64,000 bases of DNA from Glutamicibacter sp. PS (GTDB lineage: Bacteria > Actinomycetota > Actinomycetes > Actinomycetales > Micrococcaceae): assembly GCA_031317595.1 (NCBI GenBank), contig JANCMB010000001.1, forward strand, positions 3,044,325 to 3,108,324. Reading direction: 5' to 3'. The translations under genes were made by a program, and so were the position numbers. The first letter of the stretch is position 1, and each line of letters opens with the position of its first letter. The notes beneath the pieces are model-generated. The model worked only from the letters and a program-made list of their open reading frames with translations. It had not been told where the DNA came from and searched no databases. Shown one piece after another: positions 359-18,067 of the stretch.

Positions 359-1273
359 TTACCAGCTGCCGCTCCACGGCTCGGCGACCAAGGGCGCGTC
401 GGATACCCAACGCTCGGCGCAGGGCCGGCCGAGGCGAAGCGCCGACTCGACGACATGCAGGAGCAACAGCGACGTTGTCACCGTTCCCACACCGCCCGGT
501 ACGGGCGTGACGGCCTGAGCAGCCTCGGTCGCCGCGGCGTAGTCAACGTCGCCGACAAGGTTGCCCTGCTCATCGACATTGGTTCCCACATCGATCACCA
601 CGGCCTGCGGATTCAGGTGCTCGGCGGTAATGAGGTCCCTGCTGCCCGCAGCGGCCACCACGATGTCGGCCCGGCGCGTATGCGCGGCCAAATCGACTGT
701 GCGCGAGTGGCAGGCCGTCACGGTAGCGTGACGGTTCAGCAGCAGCTGCATCACCGGTCGGCCGATCACCATTGAACGGCCCACGACGGCTACATCTTGC
801 CCCGCGATGGGGACCTCATAGTGATCCAGGATCTCGATAACCGCACGCGCCGTGGCCGGCGCGTAGGCCGGAAGCCCAGCGGAGAGACACCCAAAGCTCA
901 TGGGGTTGACCCCATCAATGTCTTTTTCCACCGCAATATGCGAGGCCAGAATCTCCAGGGATGCGCCCTCGGGCAAAGGGGTCTGCAGAATAATGCCGTG
1001 GACTTCGCGATCGGCACTAAGCCGATTCAACGTCTCGGCAATGATCTGCACCGTGGCCCGACTACCCAAATCATGCACATCGCAGGCTATGCCTGCGCGA
1101 TGAGCTGACTGCTCGATAGAGCGGACATACCATTGAGTCGCACCGTTGTCGGTGGCCACCACGATGGCAAGCTTCGGCTTTACATTCGACTGTTGGAGCT
1201 GTTCGACCTTCTGGGCCACTTCTTCGCGGATGCGCGCGGCCACAGGCTTTCCGCCTAGCACATGAGCCGTCAT
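359..1273 (-). CDS. folD: Methylene-THF dehydrogenase FolD lacking the cyclohydrolase lysine
   Basis: 304 residues, usual for FolD. Conserved blocks visible are IILQTPLP (about 94-101), EKDIDGVNP (about 116-124), the NADP-fold GRSMVIGRP and the signature TPVPGGVGTVT near the C-terminus. FolD normally oxidises 5,10-methylene-THF to methenyl-THF and hydrolyses that to 10-formyl-THF. The YxxxK active-site motif reads YVRSI here: the lysine (E. coli Lys54) is Ile53 (codon ATC at 1117-1115). Family knowledge says this lysine is essential for the cyclohydrolase step, so the protein is probably dehydrogenase only. It overlaps fchA by ATGA, and fchA would supply the missing activity. Likely function: oxidation of methylene-THF released by dimethylglycine/sarcosine oxidation. 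Confidence 0.9.
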   Translation of the reverse strand: MTAHVLGGKPVAARIREEVAQKVEQLQQSNVKPKLAIVVATDNGATQWYVRSIEQSAHRAGIACDVHDLGSRATVQIIAETLNRLSADREVHGIILQTPLPEGASLEILASHIAVEKDIDGVNPMSFGCLSAGLPAYAPATARAVIEILDHYEVPIAGQDVAVVGRSMVIGRPVMQLLLNRHATVTACHSRTVDLAAHTRRADIVVAAAGSRDLITAEHLNPQAVVIDVGTNVDEQGNLVGDVDYAAATEAAQAVTPVPGGVGTVTTSLLLLHVVESALRLGRPCAERWVSDAPLVAEPWSGSW

Positions 1274-1893
1274 GCCGCGACCACCTGACGCACACCACGA
1301 GCCACATCTTCCGCGTCAATTACGGCCCGCTCCCCGAGCGCCACACAGGCGCGCAGTTTTGCCCCGACCTCGGGGTCTCGGATTTCGGCGATGTTGATCT
1401 CCAAGGTAGCCAAGGAGGTGCCAATGGCGGCACGCGCAGATTCCGCGGCCACCGCCACGTCACTGAGCACATTGGGATTACCGAAGTCCTTGAGTTCAGA
1501 GCATAGATCGATCAGCTCGATGGACAACGCCACTAAACGCTGGGGCGGGCGACTGGCCAGGCCCAGCGCCTGCTGTATCTGCGCCGTCTTCGCAGCCTTC
1601 TCCGCTTCCGTGGTAGCCGGTAGTCGGTAGGCAGCAATGACCGAGGCGAAAGCGGTCTCGTCCTCATCTGCAGCACTCAGGGACAGAGTGATCAGCTCCT
1701 GCGCGCGGGCCGCCATGGCTTGAGCGCGCGCCTCGTGGGCTTTGAACTTTTCACCGGTGCTATACAGCGCCACCATGCTGACCAACGCAGCACCCTGAGC
1801 TGCATGCAGGGCACCCACCGCGCCTCCGCCGGGAGTTGGCGCGCGTGAGGCCAATCGTTCCAGATACGCGCCAATAGGCTCGTCTTTAATCAT
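1270..1893 (-). CDS. fchA: Methenyl-THF cyclohydrolase, FTCD_C/FchA family
   Basis: 207 residues, the length of stand-alone FchA-type proteins. The N-terminal APTPGGGAVGAL glycine-rich turn and the later EINIAEI segment mark the formiminotransferase-cyclodeaminase C-terminal fold. The expected reaction is methenyl-THF + water to 10-formyl-THF. Its stop overlaps the folD ATG by four bases (1270-1273), so the two are translationally coupled. Because this FolD lacks its cyclohydrolase lysine, FchA is inferred to be the working cyclohydrolase. A cyclodeaminase acting on formimino-THF is the alternative within the family, but no histidine-degradation or glutamate formiminotransferase gene is nearby. 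Confidence 0.85.
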   Translation of the reverse strand: MIKDEPIGAYLERLASRAPTPGGGAVGALHAAQGAALVSMVALYSTGEKFKAHEARAQAMAARAQELITLSLSAADEDETAFASVIAAYRLPATTEAEKAAKTAQIQQALGLASRPPQRLVALSIELIDLCSELKDFGNPNVLSDVAVAAESARAAIGTSLATLEINIAEIRDPEVGAKLRACVALGERAVIDAEDVARGVRQVVAA

Positions 1894-2955: not shown

Positions 2956-3633
2956 GTGTCGTACTTTGCCATGGACCGGACTGCCGGCACCGAGACATCT
3001 TTGGCGGACAAGGCCTACGCAGCAATCCAGCGCAAGCTCCTCTTTCTCGAAATCGCCCCGGGCGAGGCAATCCACGATGCCAAGTTGGCCGAGGAATTCG
3101 GCATGGGACGCACCCCCGTGCGAGAGGCGCTCAAGCGACTCGAGGTGGACCGGCTGGTCATCAGCTATCCCAAACGCGGCACGTTCGCCACGCGCGTGGA
3201 GATTACCGACCTGTCCTATATCTCTGAAGTACGCACGCTCCTGGAGCCCATGGCCGCCGCGCGCGCCGCTAGGGTCGCTTCCCCAGAGCAGCGTGCCGGG
3301 CTCAAGAACCTCATCGAGCAGCTCAAATCCTTCGATATCGAAGAGGCGACAACCACCGAAGTTCTCGAATGCGACGCTTCGATTCACCGAGCAATCTACA
3401 GTGCTGCCGGGAATCCACACCTCGAGGATTCACTGATTCGCTACAACAATTTGGCCACTCGCATCTGGTGCCTCGTTATCGAACGCTTACCCCGCGTGGC
3501 AGACCACGTCAGCGAAAGTGTTGCGCTGCTCCAAGCCATTATCGATGGCGATGAAGATAAGGCCAGTGAACTCGCCCACCACCACGTTTCCGACTTTGAG
3601 TCCTCGGTCCACAGCGCACTGTTTAGCGGATAG
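2956..3633 (+). CDS. GntR-family regulator, FCD type (first of two)
   Basis: 225 residues from a GTG start. The N-terminal winged helix-turn-helix (about 15-80) contains the GntR hallmark MGRTPVREALKRLE and the wing SYPKRGTFA. An FCD effector domain follows, with Asp and His in CDASIHRAIY and a later HHHVSDFE, the usual metal/effector pocket of this class. It is divergent from purU and is followed by a close paralogue, so it is a good candidate for control of the one-carbon genes. The effector is unknown; an organic acid such as glyoxylate or formate would fit the family but is not shown. Confidence 0.88.
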   Translation: MSYFAMDRTAGTETSLADKAYAAIQRKLLFLEIAPGEAIHDAKLAEEFGMGRTPVREALKRLEVDRLVISYPKRGTFATRVEITDLSYISEVRTLLEPMAAARAARVASPEQRAGLKNLIEQLKSFDIEEATTTEVLECDASIHRAIYSAAGNPHLEDSLIRYNNLATRIWCLVIERLPRVADHVSESVALLQAIIDGDEDKASELAHHHVSDFESSVHSALFSG

Positions 3634-3756: not shown

Positions 3757-4419
3757 GTGTCCATCACAGTCCAGAAACCCAGCGCCAGCGATAAATCAAT
3801 GGCCGAACACGCCTATGAATCGCTGCGCGATCAACTCATCCTCTTGGACATCGCCCCGGGACAGCCGATTCACGAAGCTCAGCTCGCAGCCGACCTAAAC
3901 GTTGGGCGCACTCCGATTCGCGAAGCACTCAAGCGTTTGGAGACCGATCACCTGGTGGTTTCCTACCCACGACGCGGCACCTTCGCCACCGCCGTTGAAT
4001 TCCGTGAACTCTCGCAAATTTCAGAAATCCGCCAGCGCCTCGAGCCGCTGGCCGTTCGCAATGCCGCACTGAACCCAGACGCGGCCATTCGCACCGAAAT
4101 CGCTGAACAGTTAGAGCGGATCGATGCACTAGGTGAGATCAACGATCAGCGTAGCCTATTGCTCACGGACATGCATATTCACCGTCTCATTTATAAGGCA
4201 TGCGATAACACGCACCTTGAAGAGACGCTGGTGAGACTCGACAGCTTAGTTACCCGCATTTGGTGCCTGGTGATCGACCAGCTGCCCGACATTGCCGGAC
4301 ACATCCGGGAGCACTCCGGGCTACTGCGCGCAATTCTCGACGGCGATGCAGACCGGGCCGCGGAATTAGTATCGAGCCATGTGCGCAACTTTGAAGCCGC
4401 CATCCGCCAGACCCTTTAG
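3757..4419 (+). CDS. GntR-family regulator, FCD type (second of two)
   Basis: 220 residues from a GTG start; clearly paralogous to the gene just upstream. It has the same VGRTPIREALKRLE helix and SYPRRGTFAT wing, and the shared FCD segment TRIWCLVI with flanking Asp/His residues. The pair may act on the same operator with different effectors, or as a heterodimer; both are inference. A GC-rich hairpin closes the gene at 4435-4480. Confidence 0.87.
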   Translation: MSITVQKPSASDKSMAEHAYESLRDQLILLDIAPGQPIHEAQLAADLNVGRTPIREALKRLETDHLVVSYPRRGTFATAVEFRELSQISEIRQRLEPLAVRNAALNPDAAIRTEIAEQLERIDALGEINDQRSLLLTDMHIHRLIYKACDNTHLEETLVRLDSLVTRIWCLVIDQLPDIAGHIREHSGLLRAILDGDADRAAELVSSHVRNFEAAIRQTL

Positions 4420-4586: not shown

Positions 4587-5801
4587 TTAGCGACGAATCA
4601 TACCGTGCGGATCCAGCACGAACTTCTGAGCCGCACCCTCGTCGAAGGCGGCGTAGCCCTGCGGAGCCTCGGACAACGGGATCGCGGTCGCGTTCACATT
4701 CTTGGCAATCGACACCTTGTCGTTCAGGATCGCCTGCATCAGGCCACGGTGGTACTTCATGACCGGGCACTGACCGGTCACGAAGGTGTGGGACTTAGCC
4801 CAGCCCAGGCCGAAGCTCATCGACAACGAGCCCACCTTGGCAGCTTCGTCCACGGCACCTGGGTCACCGGTGACATAGAGACCCGGAATACCGATGGAGC
4901 CACCGGCACGGGTGATGTCCATCATCGAGTTAAGCACCGTGGCCGGCTGCTCGCTGGCTGCACCGTGGCCGTGGCCACGAGCCTCGAAGCCCACTGCGTC
5001 AATCGCGCAGTCAACCTCGGGAACGCCGAGCAGCTGCTCGATCTGGTCCTTCGGGTCGCCCAGCGAGACGTCGATGGTTTCGCACCCGAAGCTGCGCGCC
5101 TGCGCCAGGCGATCGGCGTTCAGGTCACCAACAATGACAACGGCTGCACCGAGGAGCTGCGCCGAGGTGGCAGCGGCAAGGCCCACCGGACCGGCGCCGG
5201 CCACGTACACGGTCGAACCTACGGTCACGCCAGCGCCGACCGCGCCATGGAAACCAGTTGGGAAGATGTCCGAAAGCATGGTCAGGTCGAGGATCTTCTC
5301 CAGGGCCTGGTCACGATCCGGGAACTTCAGGGCGTTCCAGTCTGCGTAGGGCACCAGAACGTACTCGGCCTGGCCGCCGACCCAGCCACCCATGTCGACG
5401 TAGCCGTAGGCCGATCCGGGGCGATCCGGGTTGACGTTCAGGCAAATGCCGGTCTGTCCCTCTTTACAGTTGCGGCAACGTCCGCAGGAGATGTTGAAGG
5501 GAACCGAAACCATGTCGCCGACCTTGAGGAACTCGACGTCGGGACCGACCTCGACCACTTCACCGGTGATCTCGTGCCCGAGGACTAGGCCTTCTGGTGC
5601 GGTGGTGCGACCGCGCACCATGTGCTGGTCAGAACCGCAGATGTTGGTGGCCACCGTGCGCAGAATGACGCCGTGCGGGACCTTTCGACCAACGTTTGCC
5701 GGGTTGACGCCCGGGCCGTCCTTCAGTTCGAACTCTGGGTAGGGGGTGTCGATCAGCTCGACTTTGCCTGGACCGGCGTAGCTGACTGCCAAGTTGCTCA
5801 T
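4587..5801 (-). CDS. fdhA: Glutathione-independent formaldehyde dehydrogenase
   Basis: Zinc alcohol-dehydrogenase superfamily, 404 residues from the chosen ATG at 5801; a longer frame reaches 5858, but AAGGTGG stands 5 bases before 5801. Catalytic zinc residues are in NICGSDQHM (Cys55) and GHEITG (His76). Four structural-zinc cysteines lie at 106, 109, 112 and 120. The Rossmann turn is VAGAGPVGLAA. The long loop SAYGYVDMGGWVGGQAEY and EARGHGHG are characteristic of Pseudomonas putida FdhA, which carries tightly bound NAD and oxidises formaldehyde to formate without a thiol cofactor. It would detoxify formaldehyde released by the adjacent betaine monooxygenase. Confidence 0.93.
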   Translation of the reverse strand: MSNLAVSYAGPGKVELIDTPYPEFELKDGPGVNPANVGRKVPHGVILRTVATNICGSDQHMVRGRTTAPEGLVLGHEITGEVVEVGPDVEFLKVGDMVSVPFNISCGRCRNCKEGQTGICLNVNPDRPGSAYGYVDMGGWVGGQAEYVLVPYADWNALKFPDRDQALEKILDLTMLSDIFPTGFHGAVGAGVTVGSTVYVAGAGPVGLAAATSAQLLGAAVVIVGDLNADRLAQARSFGCETIDVSLGDPKDQIEQLLGVPEVDCAIDAVGFEARGHGHGAASEQPATVLNSMMDITRAGGSIGIPGLYVTGDPGAVDEAAKVGSLSMSFGLGWAKSHTFVTGQCPVMKYHRGLMQAILNDKVSIAKNVNATAIPLSEAPQGYAAFDEGAAQKFVLDPHGMIRR

Positions 5802-5907
5802 TGTCCACCTTTTCTTCATTGAAATATCAGTTGGATACCTATTGGCGAATACCCCCAATCATGCCACTCGCTCAGTTGGTGTCAATACTCAGCGCAGGAA
5901 ATTTTTC

Positions 5908-7047: not shown

Positions 7048-8352
7048 ATGACTGCTTCGGTCAGCGCACCGCGCACCACACCCGGCAAGCTCACAGCGAC
7101 ACTTACCGATACTCGTCTCGCTGAAATCAAGACGCTGTTCGAAAACCGTCGCGAAGGGTACTCGCTGGAAGGTCCGTTCTATACCGATCCAGATCTCTTC
7201 AAGGTCGATATGGAAGCTATCTTCGGCAAGCACTGGCTCTTCGCGGCCAGCATCGCCGAGATCCCCGAGCCGGGCGACTACGTCACCTTGGACTACGGGC
7301 CCTACTCGCTCATCGTGTTGCGTAACGACGACGGCGGGGTCAATGTCCTGCACAACGTTTGCCGTCACCGTGGCGCTCGCGTACTCACCGAGGCTCAGGG
7401 CACCACCGGCAACCTCGTCTGCGGTTACCACTCCTGGACCTACTCGCCAGAAGGCAGCCTCATCCACGCCTCCTCGCCGGGCGAAGGAAAGTTTGATAAG
7501 AACTGCTTCGCGCTCAAGAAGGCACATAGCCGCATCTACGCCGGCCTGATCTTCGTGTGCATCGCCGAAGAACCGCCAACCGACTTCGACGAAGTCGCCA
7601 AGATCTTCGAGCCATACCTGGCACCGCATGACCTGGGCAAGACCAAGGTTGCCTACCAGCAGAACATCATCGAAGAGGGCAACTGGAAGCTCGTCATGGA
7701 GAACAATCGCGAGTGCTACCACTGCGATGGTCACCCAGAGCTTGCCTGCTCGCTATTCCCGACCTGGGGCCTGACCGACGGCATCATCCCGCCGCACCTG
7801 GAAGAGGTCTGGGAGCGCAACAAGACCGCGCAGGCGGATCTGGAAGCACGTTGCCGCCGCTACGGCCTGCCGTACGAGGTGCTCGAGGAACTGGACACCC
7901 GCATCGCCGGTTTCCGCATTTCCCGTGAATCCCTCGACGGGGACGGCGAATCCTTCTCCGCCGATGGCCACCGTCTCTCCAAGAAGCTGCTCGGCGACCT
8001 GCGCGACTTCCGCCTTGGCCGCTGCTCCATGCACCTGCAGCCAAACAGCTGGTTCCACTTCCAGTCCGACCACGTGATCACCTTCGGTGCATTCCCGATC
8101 AACGAACACCAGACCCTGGTGCGCACCACCTGGCTCGTCGCCGATGACGCAGTCGAAGGCGATGACTACGATCTGGAGAAACTGACCTACACCTGGAAGC
8201 AGACCAACCTGCAGGATAAGAACTTCGTGGAACTCTGCCAGGTAGGTGCCGCAAGCCCGGCCTACGAGCAGGGCCCGTACATGAAGAGCGAATACCAGGT
8301 TGAGGCCTTCATCAACTGGTACACCCAGCGCGCCCTGGAGCACCTGGCATGA
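7048..8352 (+). CDS. gbcA: Glycine betaine monooxygenase, Rieske oxygenase subunit
   Basis: 434 residues, ring-hydroxylating-dioxygenase alpha-subunit family. Rieske [2Fe-2S] ligands are Cys105-x-His107 and Cys125-x2-His128. The mononuclear iron site is in ENNRECYHCDGH, with His225 and His229. The ENNRECYHC sequence and the partner genes (reductase, dimethylglycine oxidase, formaldehyde dehydrogenase) point to N-demethylation of glycine betaine to dimethylglycine plus formaldehyde. Other quaternary amines such as stachydrine or carnitine are possible substrates. AGGAG lies 9 bases before the ATG. It overlaps gbcB by ATGA. Confidence 0.87.
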   Translation: MTASVSAPRTTPGKLTATLTDTRLAEIKTLFENRREGYSLEGPFYTDPDLFKVDMEAIFGKHWLFAASIAEIPEPGDYVTLDYGPYSLIVLRNDDGGVNVLHNVCRHRGARVLTEAQGTTGNLVCGYHSWTYSPEGSLIHASSPGEGKFDKNCFALKKAHSRIYAGLIFVCIAEEPPTDFDEVAKIFEPYLAPHDLGKTKVAYQQNIIEEGNWKLVMENNRECYHCDGHPELACSLFPTWGLTDGIIPPHLEEVWERNKTAQADLEARCRRYGLPYEVLEELDTRIAGFRISRESLDGDGESFSADGHRLSKKLLGDLRDFRLGRCSMHLQPNSWFHFQSDHVITFGAFPINEHQTLVRTTWLVADDAVEGDDYDLEKLTYTWKQTNLQDKNFVELCQVGAASPAYEQGPYMKSEYQVEAFINWYTQRALEHLA

Positions 8353-9767
8353 GCGAAGAAGTCGCCACTCTGAGTACGACGGTGGAGGCTCAGCGCATCC
8401 GCGGACTGGAAATGCCGTGGAACCGGGTACTGAGCAGCTCCGAGGGTCCCGCTGGCGCGGCCCGCGCTCTGGGTCCGTGGCGGCCCCAGGAATTCCTCGC
8501 CGAGTGCGTGGAGACCATCCCCGAGGCCGGCGGACTGATGACTTTCGTCTTCCGCCGCGCCGACGGCGCCCCGCTGGCCTTTCGCGCCGGGCAATACCTA
8601 AATATTGCCTTTCCGGTCAACGGCCCGGACGAGGACCCGGTCGATCGTAGCTACTCGATCTCCAGCGCCCCCACCGAACCATGGACCTTCAGCGTTACCA
8701 TCAAACGTGACCCTAAGGGCCTGGTCTCCGGCTGGGCGCACGACAATGTGCGCCCCGGCATGGTGCTGGACATGCTTGGCCCAGTGGGTGCCTTCCACCT
8801 GCCCGACGCCGATCGCCGCGCCCGCTACCTCTTCCTGGCCGCGGGTGCCGGTATCACCCCGATCATGTCGATGGTGCGCACCATCTGCTCGCTTCCGGGT
8901 CAGGCCGACGTGGTCATTCTGTACCACGGCGCCGAGCCTGGCGGTTTCGCCTTCTCCCAGGAGCTCGAGTACCTCTCGCAGGTCGATTCGCGCGTTAAGG
9001 TCTTCTACTCATTGGGCGACCGAAGCAAGCCGGGCGTGTGGGAAGGAATGATCGGACGGCTCACCGCCGAAATGATCGATCAGGTGGCTCCGGATGCCAA
9101 CGGGCGCAAGGTGTTCGCCTGTGGCCCGGAAGGCTACCTGAATATCGCCGCGGAGTTGCTGAACAAGGTGGGTGTGGACGACACCTCCATCTTCATGGAG
9201 TTCTTCTCCGGAGATCGCCAGACCATCCTCGAGTACGCGCAGGAAGTCGAGATCGCGGGAGAGATCGCTGGCGAGTACGCCGAGGAAATTGCCGAGTCGG
9301 CCGAGGAGTACTTCGAGGCACAGCCCGAGGCACTGAGCATGTACGAACCGGCTTATGACTCCGAAGGCACGCTGGAGGCTAGCGGCATGGAGCTGGTGGC
9401 CGTTGACGCCGAGGTTCCGGTGCCGGTTTCCGAGGCCGAGACTCCGGCCGAGGACGCTGCCCCGTCGACACCCGACACGGGCTCGTTCAAGACCGTCGGT
9501 GAGGGCGAACTGACCATGTCGTTTACCCGCACCAAGGTGAATGTGCGCATTAGCCCGGACGAGTTCATTCTCAACGCCGCGCAGCGCGCGGGCGTGCGTA
9601 TCGGCGCAAACTGTCAAGAAGGCATGTGCGGCTCCTGCAAGGTCGTGAAGCTTTCCGGTGAGATCGATATGAACCACCAAGGTGGCATTCGCGCCCGCGA
9701 AATCGAGGCCGGAAAGTTCTTGCCCTGCTGCTCCACCGCGAACAGTGACCTTGTCATCGACGCCTAG
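8349..9767 (+). CDS. gbcB: Betaine monooxygenase reductase with acidic linker
   Basis: 472 residues in three parts. A ferredoxin-NADP reductase module spans about 44-290: flavin motif RSYSISS at 100-106, nucleotide motif LAAGAGITPIMSM at 163-175 and CGPEG at 258-262. A Glu/Ala-rich acidic linker follows at about 291-385. A C-terminal plant-type [2Fe-2S] ferredoxin has Cys422-x4-Cys427-x2-Cys430-x29-Cys460. It passes electrons from NAD(P)H to the Rieske subunit. Family members are usually about 100 residues shorter, so the linker is unusual. The ATGA overlap with gbcA supports a 1:1 complex. Confidence 0.88.
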   Translation: MSEEVATLSTTVEAQRIRGLEMPWNRVLSSSEGPAGAARALGPWRPQEFLAECVETIPEAGGLMTFVFRRADGAPLAFRAGQYLNIAFPVNGPDEDPVDRSYSISSAPTEPWTFSVTIKRDPKGLVSGWAHDNVRPGMVLDMLGPVGAFHLPDADRRARYLFLAAGAGITPIMSMVRTICSLPGQADVVILYHGAEPGGFAFSQELEYLSQVDSRVKVFYSLGDRSKPGVWEGMIGRLTAEMIDQVAPDANGRKVFACGPEGYLNIAAELLNKVGVDDTSIFMEFFSGDRQTILEYAQEVEIAGEIAGEYAEEIAESAEEYFEAQPEALSMYEPAYDSEGTLEASGMELVAVDAEVPVPVSEAETPAEDAAPSTPDTGSFKTVGEGELTMSFTRTKVNVRISPDEFILNAAQRAGVRIGANCQEGMCGSCKVVKLSGEIDMNHQGGIRAREIEAGKFLPCCSTANSDLVIDA

Positions 9768-9808: not shown

Positions 9809-12337
<2,529 letters not shown>

Positions 12338-12459: not shown

Positions 12460-14781
12460 ATGCATCGCAAGGCCCCGATCGAAGATATAAACGAAGACGA
12501 CCTTAAGGTCAGTAAACCCAAATCAAGTGCCGCGGGTCTCGAAGCGGTAATGGTCTCCTTGCAGCGCGGGTTCGCGCAGGCCGGCCCCTCGCGCACGGTC
12601 CGTTCAATGTTGCGCGTGAATCAGCGCGGCGGATTCGACTGCCCCGGCTGCGCTTGGCCCGAGTCGATTACCGGCAAGCGGAAGCCAGCCGAGTTCTGCG
12701 AGAACGGCGCCAAGGCCATCGCCGAGGAATCGACCGCCCGAACCGTAACTCCAGAGTGGTTCGAAGAGCACCCGATTTCGGTGCTCGAACAGAAAACCGA
12801 GTACTGGCTCGGTTCACAGGGCCGCATTACTCACCCCATGATTATTCGTGCGGGCGAAACTCACTACACCCCGATCAGCTGGGGCGATGCCTTTGCGACG
12901 ATCGCCGAGCACGTGAATGCCACCACCCCGGACCGGTGCGTGTTCTACACCTCGGGGCGTACGGCGAACGAGACTGCATTCTTGTACCAGCTCTTGGCCC
13001 GCAGCATCGGCACCAACAACCTGCCGGACTGCTCAAATATGTGCCACGAGTCCTCGGGTACCGCCATGAATCCCACGATCGGCATCGGTAAAGGCACGGT
13101 CAGCCTCGAAGATTTCGATCATGCGGAACTGATTTTCGTGGTCGGTCAGAATCCCGGAACGAACCACCCGCGCATGCTTTCGGCGCTGTCCGAGGCGCGC
13201 GAGCGTGGTGCCCGCGTGGTGTCCATTAACCCATTGCCAGAAGCCGGGCTCATGGGGTTCAAGGACCCGCAACGGGCCTCGGGCATGATGGGTAAGTCGG
13301 CACCGATTAGTAGCGACTTTCTGCAAATCAAGGTCGGCGGCGATCTGGCCTTGTTCCAGGCTTTCGGGCACCTGCTCCTGCAGGCCGAGGAGCAGAACCC
13401 GGGTACCGTCATCGACCAGGCATTCATCGATTCTGCCACCGAAGGCTTTGAGGCCTACCGTCAGGCACGTTCCGAAATCGATTGGGCGGCCACGGAGGAA
13501 GCCACGGGCCTATCGCGGGAGCAAATCACCGAGATCGCACAACTGTTGGCAAAGTCCAAGGCCACCATCATTTGCTGGGCGCTGGGTCTGACCCAGCAGC
13601 CGCACTCGGTGCCTACGTTGAAGGAAATCATTAACCTGCTGTTGCTGCAGGGGAACTTCGGTAAGCCAGGGGCTGGCGCGTGCCCGGTACGCGGACACTC
13701 AAACGTTCAGGGCGATCGCACCATGGGTATTTGGGAGAAGCCCACCGAGGCACTGCTGGCTTCCCTGGACGCCGAGTTCGGGATTACCTCTCCGCGCGCC
13801 CACGGGTACGACTCGACCGAGACTCTGCATGCCTTTGAGCATGACGAGGTGGATGTCTTCGTGTCCATGGGTGGAAACTTCGCGTTGGCGAATTCGGACA
13901 CCGAGGCGTTGGAAGCCGGAATGCGCCGGGCGAAGCTCACGGTACACGTTTCCACGAAGCCGAACCGTTCACATGTGGTTCACGGGCAGACTTCGCTGAT
14001 CTTGCCGACGCTGGGACGTACCGATAAAGACGATAAGCACCCGAAGGGAGCGCAGTTCCTCTCAGTGGAGGACTCGATGTCGGTCATCCACTCCACCCAG
14101 GGCCGACTGACGCCGGTTTCTGAGCACTTGCTGGCCGAGCCGGTGATCGTGGCACGGATGGCGCAGGCGATTTTAGGCGATGACCACCCGGTAGATTGGC
14201 GCAGCATGGCCGAGGATTACGATGTGATCCGCGACCACATTGCACGGGTGTTGCCGGGCTTTGAGGATTTCAACCGGCGGGTTCGCCAGAAGAATGGCTT
14301 TGTGTTGCCGAATCCTCCTCGCGATACCCGTTCCTTTGCCACCTCCAGCGGTCGAGGTCAGTTCACGGTCAGCGAGTTTGAGTCGCTGAGCGCTCCGGAA
14401 GGACACTTGATCCTGCAGACCATGCGGTCACACGATCAGTACAACACCACCTTCTATGGCCTGGACGACCGGTACCGCGGTATTAAGGATGGGCGTCGCG
14501 TAATTCTGATCCATCCCGATGATTTGGCGGAGACCGGCTTCGCCGATCGTGATTTGGTAGATGTGATTTCGACCTTTGCCGGTAGCGAGCGGCGGGCGAA
14601 CCGGTTCCGGCTGGTCTCCTACCCCACTGCTCGGGGTTGCGTGGCGGCGTACTACCCGGAAGCGAATGCCTTGGTGCATCGCGATCTGGTGGCGCGTGAG
14701 TCGAACACGCCAGGGTTCAAGGCGATGATGGTGCGCTTCGTACCTCATGAGCTGCAGCCAGGACCTACCCTGGACAGCTAA
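12460..14781 (+). CDS. Formate dehydrogenase-like molybdopterin oxidoreductase (FdhF/YdeP family)
   Basis: 773 residues. The N-terminal CPGCAWP plus EFCENGAK (Cys61, Cys64, Cys80) and the molybdenum-site segment NMCHESSG, with Cys195-His196 at the place of SeCys-His in FdhF, identify the YdeP/FdhF-alpha family of bis-MGD enzymes. A C-terminal molydopterin-dinucleotide domain (about 640-765) is present. It appears as a single catalytic subunit with no iron-sulfur or membrane partner and no FdhD beside it. Position after dmg and before pntAB supports oxidation of formate from PurU and FdhA to CO2. The electron acceptor cannot be read from the sequence. Confidence 0.8.
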   Translation: MHRKAPIEDINEDDLKVSKPKSSAAGLEAVMVSLQRGFAQAGPSRTVRSMLRVNQRGGFDCPGCAWPESITGKRKPAEFCENGAKAIAEESTARTVTPEWFEEHPISVLEQKTEYWLGSQGRITHPMIIRAGETHYTPISWGDAFATIAEHVNATTPDRCVFYTSGRTANETAFLYQLLARSIGTNNLPDCSNMCHESSGTAMNPTIGIGKGTVSLEDFDHAELIFVVGQNPGTNHPRMLSALSEARERGARVVSINPLPEAGLMGFKDPQRASGMMGKSAPISSDFLQIKVGGDLALFQAFGHLLLQAEEQNPGTVIDQAFIDSATEGFEAYRQARSEIDWAATEEATGLSREQITEIAQLLAKSKATIICWALGLTQQPHSVPTLKEIINLLLLQGNFGKPGAGACPVRGHSNVQGDRTMGIWEKPTEALLASLDAEFGITSPRAHGYDSTETLHAFEHDEVDVFVSMGGNFALANSDTEALEAGMRRAKLTVHVSTKPNRSHVVHGQTSLILPTLGRTDKDDKHPKGAQFLSVEDSMSVIHSTQGRLTPVSEHLLAEPVIVARMAQAILGDDHPVDWRSMAEDYDVIRDHIARVLPGFEDFNRRVRQKNGFVLPNPPRDTRSFATSSGRGQFTVSEFESLSAPEGHLILQTMRSHDQYNTTFYGLDDRYRGIKDGRRVILIHPDDLAETGFADRDLVDVISTFAGSERRANRFRLVSYPTARGCVAAYYPEANALVHRDLVARESNTPGFKAMMVRFVPHELQPGPTLDS

Positions 14782-15010: not shown

Positions 15011-16600
15011 ATGATGCCCGCTCGAGTAACGAAAGTGAGTTTCAATTTGACGCAATTAGGCATCGTGGCCGAAGCGGGTCACGAAACACGTGTTGCGGCC
15101 ACACCGGCCACGGTTAAACAACTTCTGGCCCTAGGCTTCGAGGTTCTCGTCGAGACTCAGGCAGGAGCGGCCTCTTCCTTCCCGGATGACGCCTATGTCC
15201 AGTCTGGGGCTCGCATTGTGAGTACGACCGAGGCTTGGGCCAGCGATGTAGTCCTTAAGATCAATCCTCCGACCAATGATGAGCTAGACCAGCTGCAGAC
15301 GGGGGCCACACTGATCGCACAACTCAGTCCGGGCCTGCGTCCGGAGCTGGTTGAAGATCTGGCTCGGCGCCCGATTACCGCACTGGCATTGGATGCAGTG
15401 CCGCGCATTTCCCGTGCGCAATCCATGGATGTGCTCAGTTCCATGGCCAATATCGCCGGATACCGAGCGGTGGTCGAAGCTGCCCATGAGTTTGGGCGCT
15501 TCTTCACCGGTCAGGTCACCGCGGCGGGCAAGGTTCCACCGGCCAAGGTCTTGGTCGCTGGAGCCGGTGTCGCGGGGCTCGCGGCGATCGGTGCTGCCAG
15601 TAGCCTCGGTGCCATTGTGCGCGCAACCGACCCGCGGCCCGAAGTAGCCGATCAGGTCAAGTCGATCGGCGGCGAATACCTCAAGGTCGAGGTCGAAGAG
15701 CAGATGCAGTCGACCGACGGTTACGCGAAAGCGACCAGCGACGCGTACAACGAGCGCGCCGCCCAGATCTATAGCGAACAGGCCGCCGAGGTCGACATCA
15801 TCATCACCACTGCGCTGATTCCGGGCCGTGCCGCGCCCCGACTCATCACGGCGGCAGACGTCGCCAGCATGAAGCCCGGTAGCGTCATCGTTGACATGGC
15901 TGCCGGCCAAGGTGGAAATGTCGAAGGTTCTGTCGCTGGAGAGCGCGTGGTGACTCCAAATGGCGTCATCATCCTCGGCTACACCGACCTGCCCGGACGT
16001 CTCCCCGCCCAGGCCTCACAGCTCTACGGCACGAATATCCTCAACCTGCTGAAGCTTTTGACCCCCGGCAAGGACGGGCAGCTCGTGCTGGACTTCGAGG
16101 ACGTGGTGCAGCGCTCGGTCACCGTGGTGCGCTCGGGAGAAAAGACCTGGCCGCCTCCCCCGGTACAGGTTGCCGCGGCCCCGCCACAGCAGCAACCAGC
16201 CGAGCCGATTACGCCGGCCAGCGAACACTCCGGCGGTCTTGGCGCCAAGGGGCAAGGCGTTCTCATTGGTGTCGGCATTGCCTTGCTGTTCCTCGTCAAC
16301 GCGGTGGCCCCAGCTCCGCTCGCGCAGCATTTCACGGTACTAATCTTGTCTGTCGTCATTGGTTTCTACGTCATCGGCAAGGTTAAGCACGCGTTACACA
16401 CGCCACTGATGTCGGTCACCAACGCGATCTCCGGCATTATCGTGGTCGGCGCGATGGTGCAGATCACCTCGGGAAATCTGCTGGTGCAGATCCTCTCGGC
16501 CTGCGCGGTCCTACTGGCCACAATCAATATTTTTGGTGGCTTCGCGGTGACCCGACGAATGCTCGCGATGTTCTCACGCGGAGGTTCGGCTCATGACTAA
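15011..16600 (+). CDS. pntA: NAD(P) transhydrogenase alpha subunit
   Basis: 529 residues. The NAD-binding domain I (about 12-390) has ETRVAATPATVKQLL and VLVAGAGVAGLAAIGAA. After a Pro/Gln-rich linker (about 390-415), four hydrophobic segments form the membrane domain. It is a fused PntA like that of E. coli, rather than the split PntAA/PntAB found in some actinobacteria. With PntB it couples hydride transfer between NADH and NADP+ to proton movement. Start uncertain: ATG 15011 lacks a good ribosome site, and GTG 15035 (MSFNLTQLG) fits family starts equally well. Context suggests balancing of NAD(P)H from formaldehyde, formate and methylene-THF oxidation. Confidence 0.92.
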   Translation: MMPARVTKVSFNLTQLGIVAEAGHETRVAATPATVKQLLALGFEVLVETQAGAASSFPDDAYVQSGARIVSTTEAWASDVVLKINPPTNDELDQLQTGATLIAQLSPGLRPELVEDLARRPITALALDAVPRISRAQSMDVLSSMANIAGYRAVVEAAHEFGRFFTGQVTAAGKVPPAKVLVAGAGVAGLAAIGAASSLGAIVRATDPRPEVADQVKSIGGEYLKVEVEEQMQSTDGYAKATSDAYNERAAQIYSEQAAEVDIIITTALIPGRAAPRLITAADVASMKPGSVIVDMAAGQGGNVEGSVAGERVVTPNGVIILGYTDLPGRLPAQASQLYGTNILNLLKLLTPGKDGQLVLDFEDVVQRSVTVVRSGEKTWPPPPVQVAAAPPQQQPAEPITPASEHSGGLGAKGQGVLIGVGIALLFLVNAVAPAPLAQHFTVLILSVVIGFYVIGKVKHALHTPLMSVTNAISGIIVVGAMVQITSGNLLVQILSACAVLLATINIFGGFAVTRRMLAMFSRGGSAHD

Positions 16601-16642
16601 CCCCGCAATCGCCCTTGACCTTCTGACCTTAGGAGTTCTCTC

Positions 16643-18067
16643 GTGACCGATCAGCTTCCCGGTCTCTTGACCGTTGGCTCCTTGGCGAGCGCGGCTTACA
16701 TCACCGCCGGTCTCCTCTTTATTCTCAGCCTTGCCGGGCTCAGCAAGCACGAAACCTCACGGCGAGGCGTCGTCTTTGGCATCATCGGCATGACCTTGGC
16801 CCTACTTTCAACCGTCGCGTTGAGCCTGTTTGGTGATCCCGGCGAAGGTAACCAGAGACTTGGCCTCACCCTGCTCGTGGTCACGGTCGTCGTGGGTGGC
16901 GCCATTGGACTCTGGCGTGCCCGGGTTGTGGAAATGACAGGGATGCCCGAACTCATCGCCCTACTGCACAGCTTCGTCGGTTTGGCCGCCGTGCTGGTCG
17001 GTTGGAACGGCCATCTCGAGCACCCACCGCTCGATGGTGCACTGGAGAATATTCACCGGGGTGAGGTATTCATCGGCATCTTCATCGGTGGCGTGACCTT
17101 CACCGGGTCGATCGTGGCATTCCTGAAGCTCTCGGCACGGATGAAGTCGCGACCGCTCACGCTTCCGGGCAAGAATCTCATCAACCTGGTGCTGTTGGTG
17201 GCTTTTGTGGTGCTCACGGTGCTGTATGTGCAGAACACTGCCCTCTGGCAGCTCGTGACCGTCACCGTTCTGGCATTCGTGCTGGGCTGGCATCTGGTCG
17301 CATCCATTGGCGGCGGCGATATGCCGGTGGTGGTCTCCATGCTCAACAGTTACTCGGGCTGGGCTGCTGCGGCCGCTGGCTTCCTGCTGAGCAACGATCT
17401 GCTCATTATCACCGGTGCGCTGGTGGGTTCCTCCGGTGCCTACCTGTCCTACATCATGTGCAAGGCGATGAACCGTTCCTTCCTCTCGGTGATCGCCGGC
17501 GGCTTTGGTATCGAAGCCTCCGCCTCGAAGGACGAGGAGCAGGGCGAACACCGCGAAATCACCGCCGAGGAAACGGCCGAGCTTCTTGCTTCGGCCGATA
17601 GCGTAGTGATCACTCCGGGCTACGGCATGGCCGTCGCTCAGGCACAGTACCCGGTGGCCGAACTAGCTCACCGCCTCACCGAACAGGGCGTTAAGGTTCG
17701 CTTCGGTATCCACCCGGTGGCGGGCCGACTGCCCGGGCACATGAACGTGCTTTTGGCCGAGGCTAAGGTGCCCTACGACATCGTGCTGGAAATGGACGAG
17801 ATCAACGACGAGCTGAGCGAAACCACCGTGGTGCTCGTGATCGGTGCCAACGACACGGTGAACCCGGCAGCCGCTGAAGATCCCGGTAGCCCCATCGCCG
17901 GAATGCCGGTGCTCCGCGTCTGGGAGTCGGAGCGAGTGATCGTCTTCAAGCGCTCCATGGCCAGTGGCTACGCCGGCGTGCAAAACCCGTTGTTCTTCAG
18001 GGAGAACTCGCAAATGCTCTTCGGTGACGCCAAGGAGCGCGTCGAAGACATTCTGCGCACCCTCTAA
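16643..18067 (+). CDS. pntB: NAD(P) transhydrogenase beta subunit
   Basis: 474 residues. Eight or nine hydrophobic segments fill residues 1-290. The soluble NADP-binding domain III follows, with [39 protein letters not shown] and [12 protein letters not shown], all classic PntB motifs. It starts 42 bases after pntA with TTAGGAG before a GTG start, forming a two-gene operon. Membrane protein. Confidence 0.95.

Follow-up and report, generated by a model that had tools for sequence, protein, structure and literature searches.

Within the window, by which we mean the whole 64,000-nucleotide stretch of DNA that was analyzed, the minus strand carries three successive genes in the order purU (2827-1925), fchA (1893-1270), and folD (1273-359). 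The first encodes a formyl-THF deformylase, which converts 10-formyl-THF to formate and THF (NCBIfam PurU, 312.7 bits against a cut-off of 285.95). The second encodes a 207-residue protein of the FTCD_C family (Pfam PF04961, 5e-49), predicted to be a stand-alone methenyl-THF cyclohydrolase. The coding part of folD runs from 1273 to 362, with the stop codon at 361-359, and its 304-residue product matches both FolD domains above cut-off (PF00763, 6.5e-28; PF02882, 1.6e-54), which together with its FolD fold places it in the FolD superfamily. We predict that it is a methylene-THF dehydrogenase, likely NADP+-dependent, without cyclohydrolase activity. A first-pass annotation had described the two genes as overlapping by ATGA, and this is borne out: at 1273-1270, fchA ends in the same four bases whose ATG (1273-1271) starts folD.

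The same annotation had placed an Ile at the lysine of the YxxxK active-site motif. Direct reading of the translation gives Tyr49-Val-Arg-Ser-Ile53 (YVRSI), and the alignment around the motif is gapless, so that Ile53 (codon ATC, minus strand, 1117-1115) does occupy the position of human Lys56 and E. coli Lys54. The alignment also shows that Tyr49, Gln97 (codon 983-985, minus strand; human Gln100), Asp120 (human Asp125), and the GRS and CHS residues are retained. Thr267 (codon 473-475, minus strand) corresponds to human Val280 in the hydrophobic cage of the lysine, with the C-terminal numbering offset by 13; bifunctional FolDs have Ile, Val, or Arg at this site. The window FolD therefore shares both domains, the fold, and the Tyr, Gln, and Asp with bifunctional FolD and the MTHFD1 D-C domain (1b0a, 1a4i, 3p2o), whereas it differs from them in lacking the YxxxK lysine, in carrying Thr at the Val280 site, and in having FchA adjacent. 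When a predicted structure (mean pLDDT 89) was compared with the bifunctional FolDs of the PDB, 271-285 residues could be aligned with most of them. Thirty NCBIfam models matched the protein; all 25 among the matches listed bear bifunctional names, and the protein falls under the cut-off of every one of these 25. Arg166 and Ser190 match human residues tied to NADP+, a role that we take human Arg173, the counterpart of Arg166, to have. For human Ser197, the tie to NADP+ is given in the excerpted text of PMC9173628. These matches make NADP+ the likely cofactor, which the nearby PntAB fits.

The genes that flank folD-fchA look like a set for glycine betaine breakdown, as judged from their family matches. 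On the minus strand, a glutathione-independent formaldehyde dehydrogenase lies at 4587-5858 (TIGR02819, 743 bits, cut-off 637). The plus strand carries a gbcA-gbcB-like pair for a Rieske glycine betaine monooxygenase and its reductase (7048-9767; GbcA and GbcB are the top NCBIfam models, and neither reaches its cut-off), a dimethylglycine oxidase-like gene (9818-12337; Pfam DAO, FAO_M, GCV_T, and GCV_T_C), a candidate formate dehydrogenase of the FdhF/YdeP oxidoreductase family (12460-14781; TIGR01701, 913 bits, cut-off 582), and pntA-pntB for an NAD(P) transhydrogenase (15011-18067; NCBIfam models over cut-off). The GCV_T half of the dimethylglycine oxidase-like protein is folate-binding, and from knowledge of the family we presume that this protein is the likely source of methylene-THF. 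Between purU and the formaldehyde dehydrogenase gene are two neighboring regulators (2956-3633 and 3757-4419), both of which match one NCBIfam model without reaching its cut-off; they may be duplicates of a single cluster regulator.

Taken with the residues, this setting makes it very probable that the window FolD acts as a methylene-THF dehydrogenase and no longer has methenyl-THF cyclohydrolase activity, with the co-translated FchA supplying that step. We infer the activities, the cofactor, and the direction of flux as follows. Dimethylglycine oxidase would yield 5,10-methylene-THF, which FolD would oxidize to 5,10-methenyl-THF, likely with NADP+; FchA would hydrolyze this to 10-formyl-THF, and PurU would free formate from it. 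Formate dehydrogenase and PntAB would complete the oxidation, and PntAB could hand the NADPH from FolD on to NADH. Biosynthesis could be served by a second, lysine-bearing FolD elsewhere in the genome. A normal second copy had been anticipated by the first-pass annotation, and one was found (G000:C1:2023529-2024383) with both Lys and Gln, 37% identical to the window FolD.

The same association recurs in the host's family. Twenty folD-fchA loci were sampled for their context, 18 as stretches of 19.9 kb and two shortened by contig ends. Dimethylglycine oxidase (at least 58% identity) occurs in 18 of the 20, PurU in 16, and one or the other in 19, the sole locus with neither in its stretch being L489. 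FchA loci of the family that have no FolD gave 0/17 with dimethylglycine oxidase or PurU in the 8.5-10 kb covered at each. These FchA-like genes (L175-L187 and L189-L192) include one, L184, in which FchA is visible solely by profile search.

The identity of the window FchA bears directly on this proposal. Its Pfam family bears the cyclodeaminase name, and it scores 140.5 bits against the 275-bit cut-off of the NCBIfam FchA equivalog NF045657, as would suit a formimino-THF cyclodeaminase in a cell whose second, normal FolD provides the cyclohydrolase. We consider this improbable, since the protein is stand-alone, is co-translated with folD, and lies near purU and the dimethylglycine oxidase gene, and since the closest solved structure is one named methenyl-THF cyclohydrolase (7vg4, 1.2e-25). 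Its size points the same way. Of 35 Chloroflexota genomes that carry a normal FolD and were searched for FTCD_C, 22 gave no match; in 12, the match lies in an open frame of 505-569 residues, which we read from frame length as fused FTCD, and in one it lies in a 192-residue frame. Twelve of the 13 matches are thus of the fused kind, against 207 residues for the window protein. A genome search found FchA in a single copy.

We then asked how the catalytic residues of FolD vary with its neighbor, the comparison that the first-pass annotation had proposed as a check. FchA loci were drawn from the host's family, its phylum, named genome contigs (the 80 best among 174 loci), the phylum of a Clostridia genome, and further Actinomycetota. 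FolD loci came from Pfam-ranked searches, which supplied 30 each for the family and for the phyla of Clostridia, Chloroflexota, and Actinomycetota. Top-ranked lists favor canonical FolDs; a further 60 loci were taken from lower down the FolD rankings. Nineteen Clostridia-phylum pairs were chosen among the best-scoring FolD matches listed. FchA loci for which the stretch analyzed contained no FolD (47 from the named contigs, and 20 of 30 in the Clostridia-phylum sample) stay outside the counts. The 389 matches, from 384 loci, came down to 344 distinct FolDs once three matches missing the relevant columns were dropped, and a FolD was called linked if an FchA on the same strand lay within 300 bases of its open frame.

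In the first 30 FchA loci of the host's family, FolD lies within 1.5 kb in 22, the window included, and the residue at the lysine site is Ile in 22/22, so that Ile53 is not a chance substitution; later loci of the family added Leu (L193, L194, L243) and Thr (L188, L233, L234). The FolD search of the same family gave Lys in 30/30, none adjoining FchA. Across all samples, not one of the 160 linked FolDs has both Lys and Gln: 55 have Gln without Lys, 83 have neither, and 22 have Lys without Gln. The lysine is thus absent from 138 of the 160, and the 22 that keep it all have Glu for Gln. This is the opposite of the outcome that the first-pass annotation had named as refuting its proposal, a lysine retained in most FolDs adjoining fchA. 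The window protein keeps the catalytic Gln, and many of the other linked FolDs have Glu, Leu, Phe, or Met in its place. Among 184 unlinked FolDs, 166 have both residues, and the remaining 18 lack Lys. The division survives reduction to one row per 62% identity cluster (both residues in 0/37 linked against 45/55 unlinked), and it appears in the 60 down-ranking loci (0/12 against 43/49). Tyr49 is conserved in 344/344 FolDs and Asp120 in 151 of 160 linked ones (8 Glu, 1 gap). The lysine-less class spans Actinomycetota, Chloroflexota, Nitrospirota, Clostridia, and others, and by its adjacent stand-alone FchA and its lost lysine the window FolD belongs among these FchA-paired enzymes. Gene order, counted over 161 pairs (one truncated pair beyond the 160 linked), is fchA-folD in all lysine-less pairs but one and folD-fchA in 22/22 Lys/Glu pairs, which come from the phylum of a Clostridia genome (L305-L323, L266, L267, L274). 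Of 137 fchA-folD pairs, 46 share a start/stop overlap of 4 bases, and 32 of these 46 are Ile/Gln.

Two simpler forms of the rule were rejected. A rule on the lysine alone fails on the 22 pairs of the Clostridia-phylum sample that keep it. A rule that FchA anywhere in a genome means no lysine fails in the host's family, where some genomes with an FchA-like gene that has no neighboring FolD keep the FolD lysine; G092 and G105, for example, each have such a gene and a single FolD match, with lysine (L174, L169). It also fails in the two genomes behind L130 and L137, where FchA coexists with a FolD that retains Lys and Gln (L195, L197). The 18 unlinked lysine-less FolDs come from 17 genomes. A good FTCD_C match lies elsewhere in 13 of these, namely G610 (locus L099) and 12 of the 16 searched; the match in G322 lies in a 772-residue open frame. 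A weak, two-piece match in a 208-residue frame was found in G779, and genome searches of G330, G996, and G939 found no FTCD_C match. In G996, G939, and G779, a lysine-less and a normal folD stand in tandem (L346:511-2370, L348:550-2367, L482:1111-2947), and in G330 the lysine-less gene reaches the contig end, with a normal FolD lying elsewhere (L451). Each of the 17 has either an FTCD_C match or a normal FolD and so does not lack a candidate cyclohydrolase.

When the classes were compared column by column, position 267 stood out together with position 53. We tallied the Val280 position in the 336 FolDs of at least 240 residues. Normal FolDs have Ile, Arg, or Val there in 162/162 cases (polar in 0/162), and FchA-linked FolDs have Thr, Asn, Asp, or Ser in 151 of 156. 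Within the latter, the polar set accounts for 129 of 134 lysine-less proteins (4 Val, 1 gap) and Thr for 22/22 Lys/Glu proteins; 15 of the 18 unlinked lysine-less FolDs are polar here as well. In the portion of PMC3368264 at hand, human Val280 is among the hydrophobic neighbors thought to keep Lys56 uncharged. These counts could mean that a FolD adjacent to FchA is always cyclohydrolase-dead, by one of two routes (lysine loss or Gln to Glu) that both end in a polar residue at Val280, and that this position marks a hidden dehydrogenase-only class across several phyla and may let the dehydrogenase run without the lysine; we would put the chance of this wider reading at about even.

Published mutants fall at the two positions that are changed in FchA-linked FolDs. 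In E. coli FolD, the excerpts of PMC5688156 give ∼19% dehydrogenase and undetectable cyclohydrolase for K54N and ∼8% dehydrogenase and ∼1% cyclohydrolase for Q98H. The corresponding silkworm MTHFD results, in the passages of PMC6443876 that report them, disagree: K53A retains cyclohydrolase (kcat/Km 0.097 vs 0.13), and Q97A raises it to 0.22. The published lysine-site substitutions cited here are to Asn (E. coli) and Ala (silkworm), and the window residue is Ile. The simulation in PMC9173628, as excerpted, finds that neither lysine nor Gln can be the base, and a catalytic role for the lysine is not excluded there. The first-pass statement that the lysine is needed for the cyclohydrolase step thus holds for the E. 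coli enzyme and is contradicted by the silkworm one. Both the silkworm result and the lack of a clear base role for the lysine in the simulation are what one would expect if the window FolD were bifunctional despite its lost lysine, with FchA merely adding capacity. That seems unlikely to us in view of K54N, of the coincidence of FchA linkage with loss of Lys or Gln in 160/160 pairs, and of the third pocket residue, which covaries with that loss. Against our preferred reading, a dehydrogenase paired with a separate cyclohydrolase, stand the deep loss of dehydrogenase activity in K54N, for which the lysine-less enzyme would have to be compensated, and the many FchA genes that have no neighboring FolD. 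Since carolacton is anchored by the E. coli FolD lysine (PMC5688156, excerpted text), we predict that it would bind lysine-less FolDs poorly.

The low dehydrogenase activity left in the two E. coli mutants could also be taken to mean that FolD without its lysine has no catalytic activity or serves in regulation, which we regard as very improbable. Tyr49 is invariant, Asp120 and the nucleotide-site residues are retained, and the full fold is predicted by modeling. Moreover, among the named-locus genomes, which are drafts, a lysine-less FolD is the sole FolD match in 34 of the 41 that have one; unless these drafts are incomplete, it must be the dehydrogenase there. Five FchA-locus genomes (G615, G616, G618, G623, G630) gave no FolD match at all.

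A monofunctional FolD with FchA is already known as a kind, to which the window pair belongs, here in an aerobic-looking catabolic setting. Clostridium perfringens reportedly has a dehydrogenase-only FolD with a separate FchA (work ascribed to Aluri, 2016); by this description, the division of labor is the same as that proposed for the window, in another phylum and pathway. A monofunctional FolD is reported for Acetobacterium woodii as well. The excerpted descriptions of acetogen Wood-Ljungdahl clusters name both FchA and folD (PMC3584212, PMC10213532, PMC12003927), and folD is still labeled bifunctional in that of PMC12003927. Compared by gene names, these acetogen pairs stand with fhs in C1 fixation, whereas the window pair stands with purU in C1 oxidation. 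What the analysis adds is the residue/neighbor rule, for which searches of open-licence literature showed no prior statement, and the Val280 mark. FolD is commonly named bifunctional, and the three residues taken with the neighboring gene would flag those FolDs unable to make 10-formyl-THF alone, which bears on models of folate flux, on gene choice in acetogen and C1 engineering, and on the disputed role of the lysine. The natural lysine-loss and Gln-to-Glu forms adjoin a replacement enzyme, so that the cyclohydrolase residues can be tested on working enzymes.

The 160 pairs are related sequences and represent far fewer independent events. Changes between Lys and non-Lys number three on a FastTree tree of all 344 FolDs, seven on a 92-row tree, and five on the same tree without its long MTD1-like row; changes between both residues and not both number two, six, and four on the same trees. 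Many branches are weak, and a single clade for the class, and with it a single origin, is not rejected (p-AU 0.434), so we set aside the idea of many independent losses. Differences in residue and in gene order between the forms hint that there were two or more routes. We also rejected a recent split in the window operon, the class being broad and the window FolD just 37% identical to its own second copy. The earlier proposal of a bifunctional enzyme divided into two proteins is supported as to its outcome, with one qualification: the residues and gene order support a dehydrogenase-only FolD plus FchA, and nothing shows that the split took place in this operon.

Yeast MTD1 (1edz) is a monofunctional NAD dehydrogenase in which Thr replaces the Lys and Tyr the Gln. 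The window FolD, which has Ile and Gln at these sites, is only distantly related to it (5.8e-6). Thr and Tyr do occur there in L234, whose FolD has 1edz as its nearest match in a PDB search (E 1.1e-56 vs 4.2e-15 for the next FolD), and in L188 and L233. That an FchA-linked FolD type is nearest to a monofunctional enzyme speaks for the dehydrogenase-only reading. All three belong to one genus (g16) of the host's family, in which an MTD1-like gene stands beside an FchA-like gene (L188:3615-5180, L233:2583-3863, L234:2627-3892), and the g16 genomes G015, G045, and G069 have one FolD-domain match each.
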